Shown here: in pieces, positions 2,413 through 27,412 of the stretch | Position numbering within the stretch: position 1 is the stretch's first letter | Layout of the letters: each line of letters starts with the position of its first letter | Virus record (IMG/VR): IMGVR_UViG_3300007634_000017 | Span: 1-32,305 of that record | DNA from: a virus | Length of the DNA stretch: 32,305 nt | Strand: one strand, 5' to 3' | The notes under the pieces: generated by a model | Databases searched by the model: none | Told to the model about the DNA's origin: nothing | The model's input: only the letters and a program-made list of their open reading frames with translations | Translations under genes and position numbers: made by a program

Positions 2413-4271
2413 TATAGAGAGACCCTAGTTGTACCATCATCTAATACAGCCTCTGTAGTTGATAATGATTTGTCTAGTGATATCACATAGTTACGTAAAG
2501 GTTTTACTGTACTCTGGTTAGCAGGTGTAGCACTTACTTTAATAGAACCGCCAACATAAGAATCTTTATCGATTGACAACGCAATCAGGGATACCTTACC
2601 TTTAGCTGGGTCATACGTACCGATGTTATCTATTTTAACTATATTATTCAGATCAACTAACTGTAGTCGAGTAGAACCTAGTTTGTTTTTAATGCTAACA
2701 TTCTGTCCCTGCCACTTAAATCCAGTAGACGTTATGATATAGTCATCATTATCTGGGTTAGCTAATATAACTGGGAAGTTTAATGTCCAGTTTCTGGTTA
2801 TTTCCGAAACAAGTTGACCTGTCGCGGATTCGATTGCCGCAATTTCTGTGGAGACTGGAATACGTTGCTGTAATTTAACATCCATTCTAGAGTTGATTAT
2901 GTACTCTGATATTTTATCAATTTCAGTCAATAAGTTAGAACGTCTAAATGTAGAGTTAAACTTCTCTAAATTAGCTGACACAAAGTCATCTACGATGACA
3001 TTCACCAATGCTTGAAGAGTTTCGACAGAAGAAATGTTTTTGGTCTGGTCTACTTGGAAAACTGTGCGCAATTCGAGGTATGTGGTTTCTGGGTCAACAA
3101 ACTCAGTGTCGATAGACATAATAGATAACTTAGAAGTTAAGTTGTCTTTAATACTACCCTTAACAGTTTCTTGAGCAAACTCACTGATACCGTCAATAAA
3201 ATTAAGACTTACAAATACCTTACCGTACTGTGGAGGTTCGTTATCGTTACCACCCCAACAGAAAACATCCTTGATAAAAGGTGAAAATTTCTGGGATATT
3301 AATGTACTATAGTCATTCGCAGTAACCAATCTTTGCTGTGAAGTAAACCCACGAGGTGCGTTCAACTTAATTGACGAAGTAGTTTCTCTTGCAGAACCTC
3401 CATTAGCTGGAGTAATCGTGGTAACATTAACTGAGTAAAAGTTACTCAAGTAACTAATTTGTGCCGTAGAGAATACAGACGCACCATTAGGTTCCGCCCC
3501 TCGTGAGGAACGGTACTTTATTTGTATACGGTTACCCGCAATAGGACTACTGCCTAGGATTCTACCACCACCAAAATAAATCTCATAGAACCCATTGGAT
3601 GACTCACGCAACATAAAGATGTGAGAATTTCTATCAATAGTAGATACTTTGTCAATATTAGTGTAATTTAAACTATCTACACCAGTCCAGTCGCTAAACA
3701 CTTGGACTTCCATACTGTCTGTATCAATCGTTGCGTCTTCAATAACATATACGTTATCGTCAGAAGCGTTACCTACTAAGAAGTTCTTAGTTTTAATTTC
3801 ACCTTCATAAACGGTTATAAGTTCACTACCTGCTGCCGTCTGGAATATATACTGGTCACCTGACTTTCTAGAAGTATATTCGCTGGGCGTTTTAAATGAA
3901 TATAGTATATCATCATACTGAGCAAATAATTCTGTACCTTTCGGTAAGGATATAATATCAGGCCCGTTGGGAATAACTACTGATATTTTAACTTCAGCAG
4001 ATGACGCAGTTCGAGATTTAGGTACATACCCTAAAAGTTCCGCATGGTTAACCACCGAAGTACGAAGTTGTGCCGTAGTGATGAATGACTCATTGATAGC
4101 CATATTAGCAATCAGACCATTCACATGAGTGTTATAAGCGAGAACATCTAGTATGCTAGATAGTCCAGACGCTTCAAAGTCATAATCAGTAAACTCACCA
4201 CTTTGCTTGTAGTAGGTCTTCAGTTTATTTTTAATGTTTACAAAATCGAGATCCGACGTTGATATAGGCAT
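2412..4271 (-). CDS. 6: Baseplate wedge protein gp6
   Basis: 619 residues, close to T4 gp6 (660). The N-terminal block FTDYDFEASGLSSILDVLAY, followed by NTHVNGLIANMAINESFITTAQ and LRTSVVNHAELLGY, is the hallmark of the gp6/gpJ family. The protein forms the inner ring of the baseplate and drives the hexagon-to-star change when the tail contracts. It starts one base after the gp25 stop codon and its own stop overlaps the next start, so gp25, gp6 and the downstream structural gene form one translationally coupled late unit. Confidence 0.9.
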   Translation of the reverse strand: MPISTSDLDFVNIKNKLKTYYKQSGEFTDYDFEASGLSSILDVLAYNTHVNGLIANMAINESFITTAQLRTSVVNHAELLGYVPKSRTASSAEVKISVVIPNGPDIISLPKGTELFAQYDDILYSFKTPSEYTSRKSGDQYIFQTAAGSELITVYEGEIKTKNFLVGNASDDNVYVIEDATIDTDSMEVQVFSDWTGVDSLNYTNIDKVSTIDRNSHIFMLRESSNGFYEIYFGGGRILGSSPIAGNRIQIKYRSSRGAEPNGASVFSTAQISYLSNFYSVNVTTITPANGGSARETTSSIKLNAPRGFTSQQRLVTANDYSTLISQKFSPFIKDVFCWGGNDNEPPQYGKVFVSLNFIDGISEFAQETVKGSIKDNLTSKLSIMSIDTEFVDPETTYLELRTVFQVDQTKNISSVETLQALVNVIVDDFVSANLEKFNSTFRRSNLLTEIDKISEYIINSRMDVKLQQRIPVSTEIAAIESATGQLVSEITRNWTLNFPVILANPDNDDYIITSTGFKWQGQNVSIKNKLGSTRLQLVDLNNIVKIDNIGTYDPAKGKVSLIALSIDKDSYVGGSIKVSATPANQSTVKPLRNYVISLDKSLSTTEAVLDDGTTRVSL

Positions 4272-11700: not shown

Positions 11701-12408
11701 ATGGCATTACCAAAACTGAATGACACACCAAAATATCGCGTTACCGTACCATCTACAGGTCAGGAAGTTAGTTACCGACCTTTCCTAGTAAAGGAACAGA
11801 AGATGTTGCTGATCGCATCTGAGACGCAAGATAGAGTGGATATGGTTAAATCAATCATCAACACTATCAATGCGTGTACTACAGAAGACATCAAGGGAGA
11901 ACTAACTACCTTTGATGTAGACTACCTATTCACTAAGATTCGGTCAAAATCCGTAGGTGAGACAAGTACATTATTAATTTCATGTACCGAATGTGAAATG
12001 AATAACGAAGTTGTGGTTGAACTCGATAAGATAGAAGTTGAGGGAGTGGCCACCGATGTTAAAATCAATATCACTGACGACATTGTTCTTGAAATGAGAT
12101 ACCCGACATACGAAGACTTTATGAAAAATGAGAAACTTCTACATGGTACGAGTGCTACAGAATCTCTACTAGAGTTGCTTATCACATGTATAGCGACTAT
12201 ATGTACCGAAGAAGAACGATACTCGACCAAAGATTCGACTAGAGAAGAACTAATTGATTTTATAGACTCAATGACAGCACAACAGTTCGAGACAATTTCG
12301 ACATTTGTAAATGATATGCCCACACTTAAAGAAGAAGTTAAATTTACGTGTGCGCAGTGTAATACAGAGAACTCTAAAGTTCTAGAAGGCATAGATGATT
12401 TTTTTTGA
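11701..12408 (+). CDS. 26: gp26-type baseplate hub assembly protein / tail chaperone
   Basis: 235 residues (T4 gp26: 208). Starts MALPKLNDTPKYRVTVPSTG; residues 20-60 (YRPFLVKEQKMLLIASE) are typical of the gp26 family. Two CxxC pairs, C95/C98 and C217/C220, look like a split four-cysteine zinc site. It lies two genes before the tape measure, exactly where tailed phages place tail assembly chaperones. The reading frame ends GIDDFF-stop inside a run of eight T, which may allow a share of ribosomes to continue into the next frame. Confidence 0.8.
   Translation: MALPKLNDTPKYRVTVPSTGQEVSYRPFLVKEQKMLLIASETQDRVDMVKSIINTINACTTEDIKGELTTFDVDYLFTKIRSKSVGETSTLLISCTECEMNNEVVVELDKIEVEGVATDVKINITDDIVLEMRYPTYEDFMKNEKLLHGTSATESLLELLITCIATICTEEERYSTKDSTREELIDFIDSMTAQQFETISTFVNDMPTLKEEVKFTCAQCNTENSKVLEGIDDFF
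12399..12407 (+). other. Probable -1 frameshift slippery site (T8 followed by TGA)
   Basis: The run T-TTT-TTT is read in frame 0 as Phe-Phe and followed at once by the gp26 TGA stop (12406-12408). A -1 slip would read TTG-ATT-AAT and continue into the next open frame. Phage P2 uses a similar T-TTT-TTG site at the equivalent tail-chaperone position. The downstream frame has no ATG and no Shine-Dalgarno at a usable distance. Confidence 0.55.
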
Positions 12409-12587
12409 TTAATCTCTCTCATGACACGTTGGTAAATTACTACCAAGTTAACTTCCAACTGTTAAACAACTTCAACTACTCATTGAGTGATGTTGAAGAA
12501 ATGTTGCCTTGGGAGAGAGAGATTTATTTGACCATGTTGATTGACGACCTAAAAGAAAAAAGAGAAAGAGCACAACAGCAGGGATAA
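12405..12587 (+). CDS. 51: gp51-like baseplate hub assembly protein / frameshift extension of gp26
   Basis: 60 residues if read from TTG 12405, otherwise the C-terminal extension of gp26 after a -1 frameshift. The sequence has LVNYYQVNFQLLNNFNYSLS and MLPWEREIYLTMLIDDL, resembling small proteins annotated as gp51 that follow gp26 in marine T4-like phages. Predicted helical. There is no in-frame ATG before the conserved part. It ends three bases before the tape-measure ATG. Function in T4: needed for hub assembly but absent from the virion, as expected of a chaperone. Confidence 0.6.
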   Translation: MINLSHDTLVNYYQVNFQLLNNFNYSLSDVEEMLPWEREIYLTMLIDDLKEKRERAQQQG

Positions 12588-12590
12588 CCC

Positions 12591-14297
12591 ATGATTGAAA
12601 CATTAATAGAGCACCTAAAATCACAGAATAATACTCTGGATAGTGTTAACACTAACCTTACGAGTATGAACAGTTCTTTAGCGACAATGATTCTGAGTGA
12701 CCGGAAGGACGAACTTCGTCGCCGTGAAGCAGATGATGATGCTAAAAGAGCAGCGAGTGCTGCCTCCCGAACAACCAGTACTGCCGGTGGTGGTGGTAGT
12801 AAAAAAGGTGGTGGCGGTGGTAGATTTTCGGGTTTTGGTGGTGTTCTAGGTGGATTTGGTGCGGGTACGTTGGCAGGTGGGGCAACAAGTTTATTAGGTA
12901 GAGCTGCCCTGGCAGGTGGTTTGGCTGCGGGTGCCGACAATATTGCTAGTTATGTTCAAGAACAGACTGGTTCAAGTGACCTCGCTGATGCCGCGCATCG
13001 AGCAACAAAACTGGGGTCATTCGGTCTTCTTTTGGGTACGCGTTTTGCTTTACTGGGTGCGGTAGGTGGAGCCCTTGCTACTCCCGAAGTTATATCAGAA
13101 CTTGAAAAGTTGGGAGACAAGGCAGCAGGACTGAAAGAGCCTTTGATGAAATTCACAGGTGCTCTACCTTCATTGAACGACGCACTTTCTAAAGTGACTG
13201 AAACCGTGGTAGGGACTTTAAGTTTTATTAATTCAGCAATCGAGGGAGACGTGCCCGCTGCTTTAGACAAGGTCGACGAAGCGGCAGTATTGGCTCTTGG
13301 TGTTAAAGGAGGTATGGACGCTAACAAGAATAAGGAGAAACTTACTAGAGCAGGTCGAAGAGCTGCGCAAAATGCTCGGCAGGCAGCAATCAAGGCAAAA
13401 AAAGTTACTTCACCAGTATCAGAAATGGAGTTCTCTAAAAGTCAACGTCAACAATTTAATTCTGAAACTGCTAAGGGTTTGAGTGACAAGGAAATTAAAG
13501 CTTTGGAGCTAGATGGACTCAAGGTAGATAAAACTACCGGTAGTATCTCTAAGGTCGGTGGTGAATTTGTAAGTGCTGATAAGGTAGATGAATTATTTGC
13601 TAAGAATGAAATCAAAACGTCAACCCAAAGTCTCAGTGCTAAAAACTTTATAGATGAACTTAATGGTAAAGCGGCAGCGAAATACGGTAAGTTTGGTAAG
13701 GCATTATCCTTCTTAAAGAAAGTTCCGGCATTGGGTTCTTTAATAAGTGGTGGAATAATAGCAAATATTTTAATGGATGAGACCACATCTACGAAAGAAA
13801 AAGCGGCATTGCTTAGTAAAGAATTGGGTAGCATAGGTGGCGCAGCTCTTGGTGGCGCAGTTGGTGGTTTGATAGGAACCTTAGGCATGCCCGGCATAGG
13901 TACTCTTACTGGAGGTGTATTGGGTGCTTTAGCTGGTTCGTGGTCAGGAGAGGAATTGGGAGAAAAGTTTGCCAATTGGATGTTAGGTGTAGACGATTCA
14001 GCATCAGAACCCTCAGAACCTGTGGCAGCAGCCGGTGGAAATAAAAGACGACGAGGTGCTGGTGCCAAACCTTCTCAGGTTAGTAGTAGTGTCACGTCAG
14101 CACCGTATCCTCAGTCTGGTGTTAAGGTTGCGACAGCATCTAGTGATATGTTTGCCGCTCAGGCGCAACAAAATATCGTGGTGGTAGACAATAGTAATGT
14201 CAGTAATAATGTCAGCACTCAGGCAGGTGATGTTAGTTTCAGCGGAACCACTGGTTTCGACTTCTATGACCCAATGATGGGTTCTAGAACTGCATAA
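12591..14297 (+). CDS. 29: Tail tape measure / baseplate hub protein gp29
   Basis: 568 residues (T4 gp29: 590), behind AGGGATAACCC-ATG. N-terminal helix, then a Gly/Ser-rich linker (residues ~64-105), long helical stretches with Ala/Lys, and a hydrophobic Gly-rich segment (~390-465) as in tape-measure proteins that insert into the host membrane. No catalytic domain is visible. Placement after the chaperone pair is the classic tape-measure position. Last gene of the plus-strand late block; its stop is followed by a hairpin that terminates the converging gp32 transcript. Confidence 0.72.
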   Translation: MIETLIEHLKSQNNTLDSVNTNLTSMNSSLATMILSDRKDELRRREADDDAKRAASAASRTTSTAGGGGSKKGGGGGRFSGFGGVLGGFGAGTLAGGATSLLGRAALAGGLAAGADNIASYVQEQTGSSDLADAAHRATKLGSFGLLLGTRFALLGAVGGALATPEVISELEKLGDKAAGLKEPLMKFTGALPSLNDALSKVTETVVGTLSFINSAIEGDVPAALDKVDEAAVLALGVKGGMDANKNKEKLTRAGRRAAQNARQAAIKAKKVTSPVSEMEFSKSQRQQFNSETAKGLSDKEIKALELDGLKVDKTTGSISKVGGEFVSADKVDELFAKNEIKTSTQSLSAKNFIDELNGKAAAKYGKFGKALSFLKKVPALGSLISGGIIANILMDETTSTKEKAALLSKELGSIGGAALGGAVGGLIGTLGMPGIGTLTGGVLGALAGSWSGEELGEKFANWMLGVDDSASEPSEPVAAAGGNKRRRGAGAKPSQVSSSVTSAPYPQSGVKVATASSDMFAAQAQQNIVVVDNSNVSNNVSTQAGDVSFSGTTGFDFYDPMMGSRTA

Positions 14298-14323
14298 AAA
14301 AAAGGGGGAACTTTCGTTCCCCC
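14296..14323 (-). terminator. Rho-independent terminator of gp32
   Basis: On the minus strand the stem GGGGGAAC (14323-14316) pairs with GTTCCCCC (14311-14304) around a GAAA tetraloop and is followed by seven T (14303-14297). In the plus direction no T-run follows, so it acts on the leftward gp32 message, 18 bases after its stop codon. Confidence 0.85.
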
Positions 14324-14341
14324 CGAATCCAAATATCTGGA

Positions 14342-26500: not shown

Positions 26501-27364
26501 ATGTTTTACAGCCCAAAAAAAGAACTCATCCTCCGTGACTTGAATGAAGATGGTTCAGCGTTTTATCAATTTGTATATGGTGGGGAAAAGGAATCACTTG
26601 CCCTTGAATTGAGCACTCAGTTAAAAACTATTCTTCACGAAGACGGAAAATATTTGGCATACCAGAACTCGGATGTGAACACAATAGAAGAAGTTCTCAA
26701 TCGAGTACCAATGTTTCTTAACATGTTAAAGCATCGCGGATACAAAAATATCCTATATGTGGGCCATTTCAACGACGGTCAAACTAGCTGGATTCTAGAC
26801 GAGTATGCTGACCGTACATTGGATGTGTTGCCTCCAGAACGTTCAGGACTGGGTTCTCAGATTGATCCTAATATCATCGTCCAGTTCCTACCATTGTTAC
26901 ACAAAGCATTCAACTACCGTGGGGGCTTTAAAGTAGCACGACCAACTCGACCACAGCACCGTGGCTTACTTTATTCCTTGTATGGTCTGAATGGTCTTCG
27001 AGGCCATATGGTTCAGGCATCTAGTCAGTACAGTCATGGTAACTTGGATTGGACTGTTGAGTCTACAGAAGAGAAATTTGATGCTGTAGTATTCTTAGGT
27101 TGTCCTAAGTATGATAACAGGGCGTTCTCTTTCAGAGAAGTATATGACCAATTTGCGCAATACTGTACTCCAGACTTTGAACTAGTCGACTTGTACTATG
27201 GTGCACCCGACGCTGGTAAGTGGGTAGGTGGTGAGAAGAAATCAACTGTTTCAGACATCGACGTAGCATTCACTACTCGTTCTCAATGGGATTCAGAAAT
27301 TAAAGATGGTGGGGGTCGACCAGAAGAGGTCGAGAACTTCCGTCGTATGCTAACCGTATTTTAA
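26501..27364 (+). CDS. Unknown protein of 287 residues, late
   Basis: No family recognised. N-terminal alpha/beta part (MFYSPKKELILRDLNEDGSA), a region with KHRGYKNILYVGHFNDGQTS, a His/Arg-rich centre (FKVARPTRPQHRGLLYSLYG), then an alternating alpha/beta part with FDAVVFLGCPKYDNRAFSFR and DFELVDLYYGAPDAG. NILYVG and AVVFLG are strand-loop patterns of Rossmann-like folds, so a nucleotide-binding or methyltransferase-like fold is possible, but no motif is diagnostic. Cotranscribed with the 88-residue gene and closed by a strong terminator. Confidence 0.6.
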   Translation: MFYSPKKELILRDLNEDGSAFYQFVYGGEKESLALELSTQLKTILHEDGKYLAYQNSDVNTIEEVLNRVPMFLNMLKHRGYKNILYVGHFNDGQTSWILDEYADRTLDVLPPERSGLGSQIDPNIIVQFLPLLHKAFNYRGGFKVARPTRPQHRGLLYSLYGLNGLRGHMVQASSQYSHGNLDWTVESTEEKFDAVVFLGCPKYDNRAFSFREVYDQFAQYCTPDFELVDLYYGAPDAGKWVGGEKKSTVSDIDVAFTTRSQWDSEIKDGGGRPEEVENFRRMLTVF

Positions 27365-27385: not shown

Positions 27386-27412
27386 GGGGAGCATTGCGCT
27401 CCCCTTTTTTTT
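27386..27412 (+). terminator. Rho-independent terminator of island 2
   Basis: Stem GGGGAGC (27386-27392) pairs with GCTCCCC (27398-27404), loop ATTGC, followed by eight T (27405-27412). It lies 21 bases after the stop of the 287-residue gene; its T-run overlaps the last codon of the converging small gene. Confidence 0.85.

Follow-up and report, generated by a model that had tools for sequence, protein, structure and literature searches.

The window analysed here, the whole of a 32-kb virus fragment from IMG/VR, carries a gp26-like gene (ORF1) whose last codons read GAT TTT TTT TGA. ORF1 matches PF12322, T4_baseplate (E 7e-57), and phrog_150 (E 1.8e-61), and it has strong matches to gp26 of many T4-like phages. 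The nearest isolate record is Phage C48C1 (Kyanoviridae), with 60% identity in ORF1. A run of eight T (T8) occupies 12399-12406 at the end of this gene, and a gp51-like frame in -1 register (ORF2) continues from it; its first codon after the slip point is TTG at 12405, and its stop is TAA at 12585-12587. ORF2 matches phrog_634, annotated as baseplate hub assembly catalyst (E 4.5e-22). The phrog_150 profile spans both ORFs back to back, with columns 5-232 on ORF1 and columns 235-282 on ORF2. An earlier note on this DNA had described the T8 before the gp26 stop, the gp51-like -1 frame, and the lack of an ATG and a ribosome-binding site for that frame. All of these are seen: there is no ATG 5' of the conserved region of ORF2, and the TTG lacks a purine-rich ribosome-binding site in front of it.

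The next gene begins 3 nt past the end of the -1 frame and matches phrog_794, a tail length tape measure protein. The locus thus has the G/GT layout, with a short ORF, an overlapping -1 frame and a tape-measure gene directly downstream (Table 1). Beyond the tape-measure gene, a strong terminator-like hairpin, GGGGGGAACGAAAGTTCCCCC, followed by a T-run, lies on the minus strand at 14303-14324; it sits between that gene and a convergent gp32-like gene and may serve both strands.

Table 1. Features of the locus in window coordinates
Feature	Position	Strand	Basis
TAC-N (short tail assembly chaperone, gp26-like), 235 aa	11701..12408	+	ATG..TGA; PF12322, phrog_150
Shine-Dalgarno-like AGAAGG, 9 nt before heptamer	12384..12389	+	sequence; weak in window
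Slippery heptamer T TTT TTT, in register; first seven of T8	12399..12405	+	sequence; kept across relatives
TAC-C extension (gp51-like C-terminal domain), -1 frame	12405..12587	+	phrog_634, phrog_150 columns 235-282; conserved in relatives
0-frame stop TGA, abuts heptamer	12406..12408	+	sequence
Long-range stem, 5' arm, 7 nt past heptamer	12413..12421	+	covariation; MFE fold
Hairpin I within long-range stem	12422..12464	+	MFE only; similar hairpin in C48C1
Hairpin II within long-range stem	12465..12505	+	MFE only
Long-range stem, 3' arm, in W-E-R codons of PWERE motif	12510..12518	+	covariation; MFE fold
Tape-measure-like protein, 568 aa, directly 3'	12591..14297	+	phrog_794 E 1.6e-9

The AlphaFold2 model of ORF1 has a pLDDT of 87.9. 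Its first ~90 residues align with the HK97 tail assembly chaperone (2ob9) at Z 7.5 and rmsd 3.9 over 83 residues, a middling score in a range (Z below 8) that can reflect a common arrangement. Other matches of the model are 3fgx (Z 8.0) and YqbN, 3klu (Z 6.9); the next, unrelated row scores Z 4.2. The four top rows (3fgx, 2ob9, 3klu and 5ir0) all cover ORF1 residues 1-95. We take 3fgx, 3klu and 5ir0 to be chaperone-like; only 2ob9 is named so. A Foldseek search of the PDB with the same model gave no significant match, the best being again 2ob9 (E 0.69).

Conservation of the T run

The first seven bases of the run fit the X XXY YYZ pattern of a slippery heptamer in the zero-frame register. The earlier note had likened the site to the T TTT TTG of P2. 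The T run of that comparison stands and the P2-type heptamer does not: T TTT TTG is present only in the -1 register, and the heptamer in register is T TTT TTT. Elsewhere on its plus strand the window has a single further T8, at 27405-27412, in the gap 3' of an ORF at 26501-27364.

We gathered gp26-gp51 junctions from isolate phages, IMG/VR contigs and genome bins, and removed sequences more than 80% identical. The earlier note had proposed to check whether the T run is kept in relatives, and it is: an in-frame T TTT TTN is present in 124 of 126 non-redundant relatives (<80% identity) and in all 91 held-out non-redundant loci. The run was also unchanged in 11 of 11 near-identical IMG/VR contigs in a first scan. 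Among the 124 relatives the last base of the heptamer is C in 64, T in 42, A in 11 and G in 7, usually at most one codon separates the heptamer from the gp26 stop, and the -1 frame is open across it in every one of the 124 checked. The lineages that carry it include Kyanoviridae, Pootjesviridae, Emdodecavirus and Menderavirus, as well as deep Straboviridae such as Schizotequatrovirus, Chrysonvirus and Nanhuvirus.

Such conservation exceeds chance. Given each gene's own codon use, and ignoring kinship, the chance that all middle Phe codons would be TTT is ~10^-23, and the chance that all preceding codons would end in T is ~10^-30. With such codon use, the heptamer would be very unlikely to persist in the absence of selection. 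At the conserved Phe of the RPF motif, 69 sequences have TTT and 44 have TTC; the first Phe of the heptamer is always TTT. Even GC-rich lineages that seldom use TTT (own fraction of TTT 0.06-0.4) retain the heptamer.

The two relatives with no T6 run, Erwinia phage Bue1 and Vibrio phage D494, both belong to distant lineages. Each has a gp26-like gene and an overlapping -1 frame (Bue1, L071, stop at 3281; D494, L075, stop at 3155), and the D494 junction has a TAATG overlap. These two phages may use another slip site or reinitiation.

The collection also holds T4-like gp26 loci (L162-L202) in contigs binned with unrelated bacterial or archaeal genomes, including a Heimdallarchaeota bin; most of these are probably mis-binned phage contigs.

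RNA structure around the proposed slip site

A -1 frameshift cassette of the dnaX type consists of an upstream Shine-Dalgarno-like sequence, the heptamer and a downstream RNA stem at 5-9 nt spacing. The same three parts are found at this locus. They differ from the dnaX type in the stem, which in the window's clade is long-range, with arms about 90 nt apart and two hairpins enclosed, and in other lineages is a local hairpin.

In the window, the segment 12406-12528 folds at -36.4 kcal/mol (z -4.38), and none of 200 shuffles was as stable. The C48C1 fold has a z of -3.57. Over 70 sequences, the 118 nt after the heptamer have a mean z of -2.24, with 54% of them below -2, against z of -0.07 to -0.6 for windows upstream and downstream of that region.

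The long-range helix was picked from among all column pairs by permuting synonymous codons between sequences, and it starts 7 nt after the heptamer, inside the spacing of the cassette. At least eight of its nine pairs form in 44 sequences, whereas the null has a mean of 24 and a maximum of 34. In two of the pairs, 12413-12518 and 12416-12515, either base can change without altering the protein, and both pairs covary as C-G and T-A; at the latter, Leu CTT is matched by Glu GAA, and CTC by GAG. Among 973 synonymous pairs these two take ranks 1 and 3. Pagel tests of correlated evolution, which like our other tree tests and our E-values are approximate, give likelihood ratios of 37.3 and 12.7, respectively; the maximum among 128 control pairs is 18.2 and the second 11.6, so that only one control exceeds 12.7. 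The minimum numbers of switches on the tree are 13 and 9.

The helix was found after looking and then tested on held-out loci from the same collection. There, the two pairs rank 1 and 7 of 366 (72 sequences), and their likelihood ratios of 20.7 and 17.4 exceed those of all 190 controls (maximum 14.8). Furthermore, in one alignment (A2) paired cells amount to 85.9% versus 81.6% after shuffling and double changes to 68 versus 34 (0 of 500 shuffles in each case), and pairing drops to 37-62% in slid registers. These results support a long-range stem that is conserved and has been kept by evolution.

The register of the helix is i+j=133; a stem at i+j=131 gave no signal. A GC bias that couples C with G and T with A was also considered as the source of the covariation, and we rejected this composition artefact because the mean correlation over the 973 synonymous pairs is 0.02. 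The permutation of synonymous codons did not single out the two hairpins enclosed by the stem. A search of 12200-12700 against Rfam gave no match, which suits an element that has not been described before.

No structure emerged from a consensus fold of the full set of 124 sequences, because the lineages differ. In 21 sequences (including L351, L376, L364, L236 and L383) the same 5' arm pairs locally instead. This local hairpin has a 4-nt loop, keeps the same spacing, lies within the first 36 nt from the heptamer and shows compensatory changes, as in GGCTCTC-TCAT-GAGAGCC, GGCTATC-TCAC-GATAGCC and GACTCTC-GCAT-GAGAGTC. There are 22 local stems of six or more consecutive pairs, whereas the null averages 5.3 and peaks at 11. 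By strict rule about half of the relatives form neither the long-range nor the local stem, so structure at this site is general in tendency and not universal in form.

Upstream of the heptamer, the family's Glu codon before a conserved Gly, located 11-15 nt upstream, is enriched for GAG. The ratio of GAG to GAA is 46 : 27 at this codon and 716 : 1958 elsewhere (63% versus 27% GAG; Fisher p 2e-10, kinship ignored). This bias is as expected for an internal Shine-Dalgarno-like stimulator. The element is in part explained by the conserved Glu-Gly itself, and the window has a weaker form of it, AGAAGG.

Readings of the junction

The virus is best read as a marine, uncultured T4-like phage and the locus as its tail assembly chaperone gene. 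We consider it very probable, from sequence comparison, that -1 ribosomal frameshifting at this locus makes both TAC-N and a fused TAC-NC. Frameshifting is the best explanation because the heptamer and the open -1 frame are conserved, start codons are missing in relatives, and the two parts are homologous to gp26 and gp51. The earlier note had proposed just these two products, gp26 and a gp26-gp51 fusion, and every comparative test that we ran agrees with its proposal.

Under termination-reinitiation, gp26 would end at its TGA and a restart at the overlapping TTG would give a separate gp51-like protein. The overlap of the TTG with the stop in the window suits such a restart, as do the TGATG or TAATG overlaps of some relatives (phiM9, RHph_I9, P10VF, Ps15 and D494). 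However, the TTG has no ribosome-binding site, and the start codon does not persist. The T8 is kept in C48C1 and in the eight loci L083-L090 (51-58% identity), but none of them has a start codon there: the codon that begins the -1 frame is TTA-like (TTA itself in C48C1) and is not a start. The earlier note had named loss of the T run together with an ATG in close relatives as evidence against frameshifting, and these relatives show the reverse. More broadly, 58 of the 126 relatives lack ATG, GTG and TTG in the stretch that begins 30 nt 5' of the stop and ends 10 codons 3' of it. Reinitiation would also leave the invariant, in-register T run unexplained, and T4 gp51 is one fused chain. We therefore judge reinitiation to be very unlikely indeed.

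Slippage might instead occur in transcription, with RNA polymerase stuttering on the T8 so that an extra U in some mRNAs would fuse the frames. In E. coli this usually needs a run of about nine or more. The window's T8, and the runs of eight (30) or nine (2) that together make up 32 of the 124 relatives, would suit it, but most runs fall well short of that length: 80 have exactly six T and 12 have seven. Polymerase stuttering also sits poorly with the single register that is kept, with the C, A or G that follows the run, and with an RNA structure at canonical frameshift spacing behind it. As the explanation of the locus, transcriptional slippage is very unlikely, and it could contribute in species with a T8. 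The remaining reading, that one ORF has been broken by a sequencing or assembly error or by gene decay, draws on the proneness of homopolymers to error. It has a negligible probability and we regard it as refuted by the comparative data: 11 contigs are identical, and C48C1 and more than 200 other relatives have the same layout, with both frames conserved as protein.

Ribosomal frameshifting at the heptamer would work as follows. Most ribosomes would read gp26 through to its TGA and release TAC-N, and a fraction would slip by -1 on U UUU UUU and go on to make TAC-NC, with the predicted junction DDFF|LINL; the octapeptide DDFFLINL given by the earlier note is the same. How much of each product is made probably depends on a pause of the ribosome, brought about by the Shine-Dalgarno-like sequence before the heptamer and the RNA stem that starts 7 nt after it. 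Both TAC-N and TAC-NC would then coat the tape-measure protein, and the extra domain of TAC-NC would recruit tail-tube subunits, as for lambda gpG and gpGT. We infer the slippage itself, its stimulation by the RNA stem and the chaperone role. The conserved stem is a concrete, testable candidate for the stimulator.

T4 gp26 and gp51 and related systems

The slip site of lambda is G GGA AAG, unlike the T TTT TTT found here. The lambda gpG/gpGT pair and those of other dsDNA phages (Xu, Hendrix and Duda 2004; Atkins et al. 2016, PMC5009743) resemble this locus, with a short ORF and a -1 extension before the tape measure and the same proposed role. In an excerpt of the 2016 review, the G-T frameshift is widely conserved 'except T4' (PMC5009743).

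T4 gp26 (TAC-N) and gp51 (TAC-NC) belong to the same family as the locus (PF12322, phrog_150, phrog_634). In T4, however, the two forms are separate paralogous genes that are divergently transcribed, whereas the window has one gene and a slip site. The earlier note had suggested that the two T4 genes may be a split or fusion of a G/GT pair. The split was not borne out: we reject a split gene for T4 in favour of a duplication, as gp51 covers the full span and gp26 and gp51 are homologous over their shared part. T4 gp26 (208 aa) covers phrog_150 columns 14-235, and T4 gp51 (249 aa) covers columns 13-280 in one continuous chain that includes the ORF2 part. Profile comparison of gp26 and gp51 alignments gives 99.2% (E 1.6e-19). 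With hhalign, TAC-N matches gp26 at 99.5% and gp51 at 97.5%, and ORF2 matches the gp51 C-terminus at 97.5% (E 8.6e-12). With its full span and its profile match to gp26, gp51 is the long paralogue and gp26 the short one, and they are not halves of one gene. From these sequence relationships, a duplication into a short and a long copy accounts for T4 gp26 and gp51 better than a split does.

T4 gp51 long passed for an essential protein of hub assembly whose function was unknown (PMC3004832). The frameshift layout in relatives supports gp26 and gp51 as the short and long forms of a tail chaperone, held as two genes in T4. It also offers a natural comparison between a lineage in which an RNA signal would set the pair of chaperone forms and one in which two genes do so.

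As Vladimirov and colleagues reportedly found, several T4-like groups have kept the frameshift, and the group of T4 has separate genes in its place. Two later papers (PMC10885494, PMC12846349) credit frameshifting in T4-like TAC genes to Vladimirov, Gautam and Davidson (2022, Virology 566:9-15), and PMC12846349 cites that work for poly-T frameshift signals in T4-like TAC-N genes. Such frameshifting is thus already published and our locus is a further case; what may be new is the conserved RNA stem. The TAC loci of Vandenendeviridae and Andersonviridae, with their invariant GTTTTT, are like ours in their poly-T slip near the TAC-N 3' end and their uninterrupted -1 frame, as presented in part of PMC12846349. 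They differ in belonging to other phage families, and that part of the paper describes no RNA stem for them (PMC12846349).

We put forward one wider proposal, which we hold to be evenly poised between right and wrong. Frameshifting in T4-like TAC genes would be driven by a conserved, undescribed RNA element, made up of the Shine-Dalgarno-like sequence and a stem that begins 6-7 nt past the T TTT TTN heptamer. This stem would come in two interchangeable forms: long-range, with arms about 90 nt apart, in the window's clade and many cyanophage-like viruses, or, in the same position, a local hairpin of 7-8 bp with a 4-nt loop. The element would have become unneeded once T4's ancestor duplicated the gene into gp26 and gp51.

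The gp26 and gp51 genes are divergent in T4, Winklervirus, Tulanevirus, Bragavirus and Lazarusvirus; in Klebsiella phage Roth27 (L076 2501-3795) and Pantoea phage Phynn (L080 1904-3191) the paralogues instead lie side by side on the same strand. In frameshifting T4-like phages, databases mis-start the gp51 part. The annotated gp51 of C48C1 and Syn19 begins at an internal ATG (L001 4783-4887; L059 3765-3902), which removes the conserved beginning of the extension, and in C48C1 the annotation is 34-35 aa long, against a fused extension of 60 aa.
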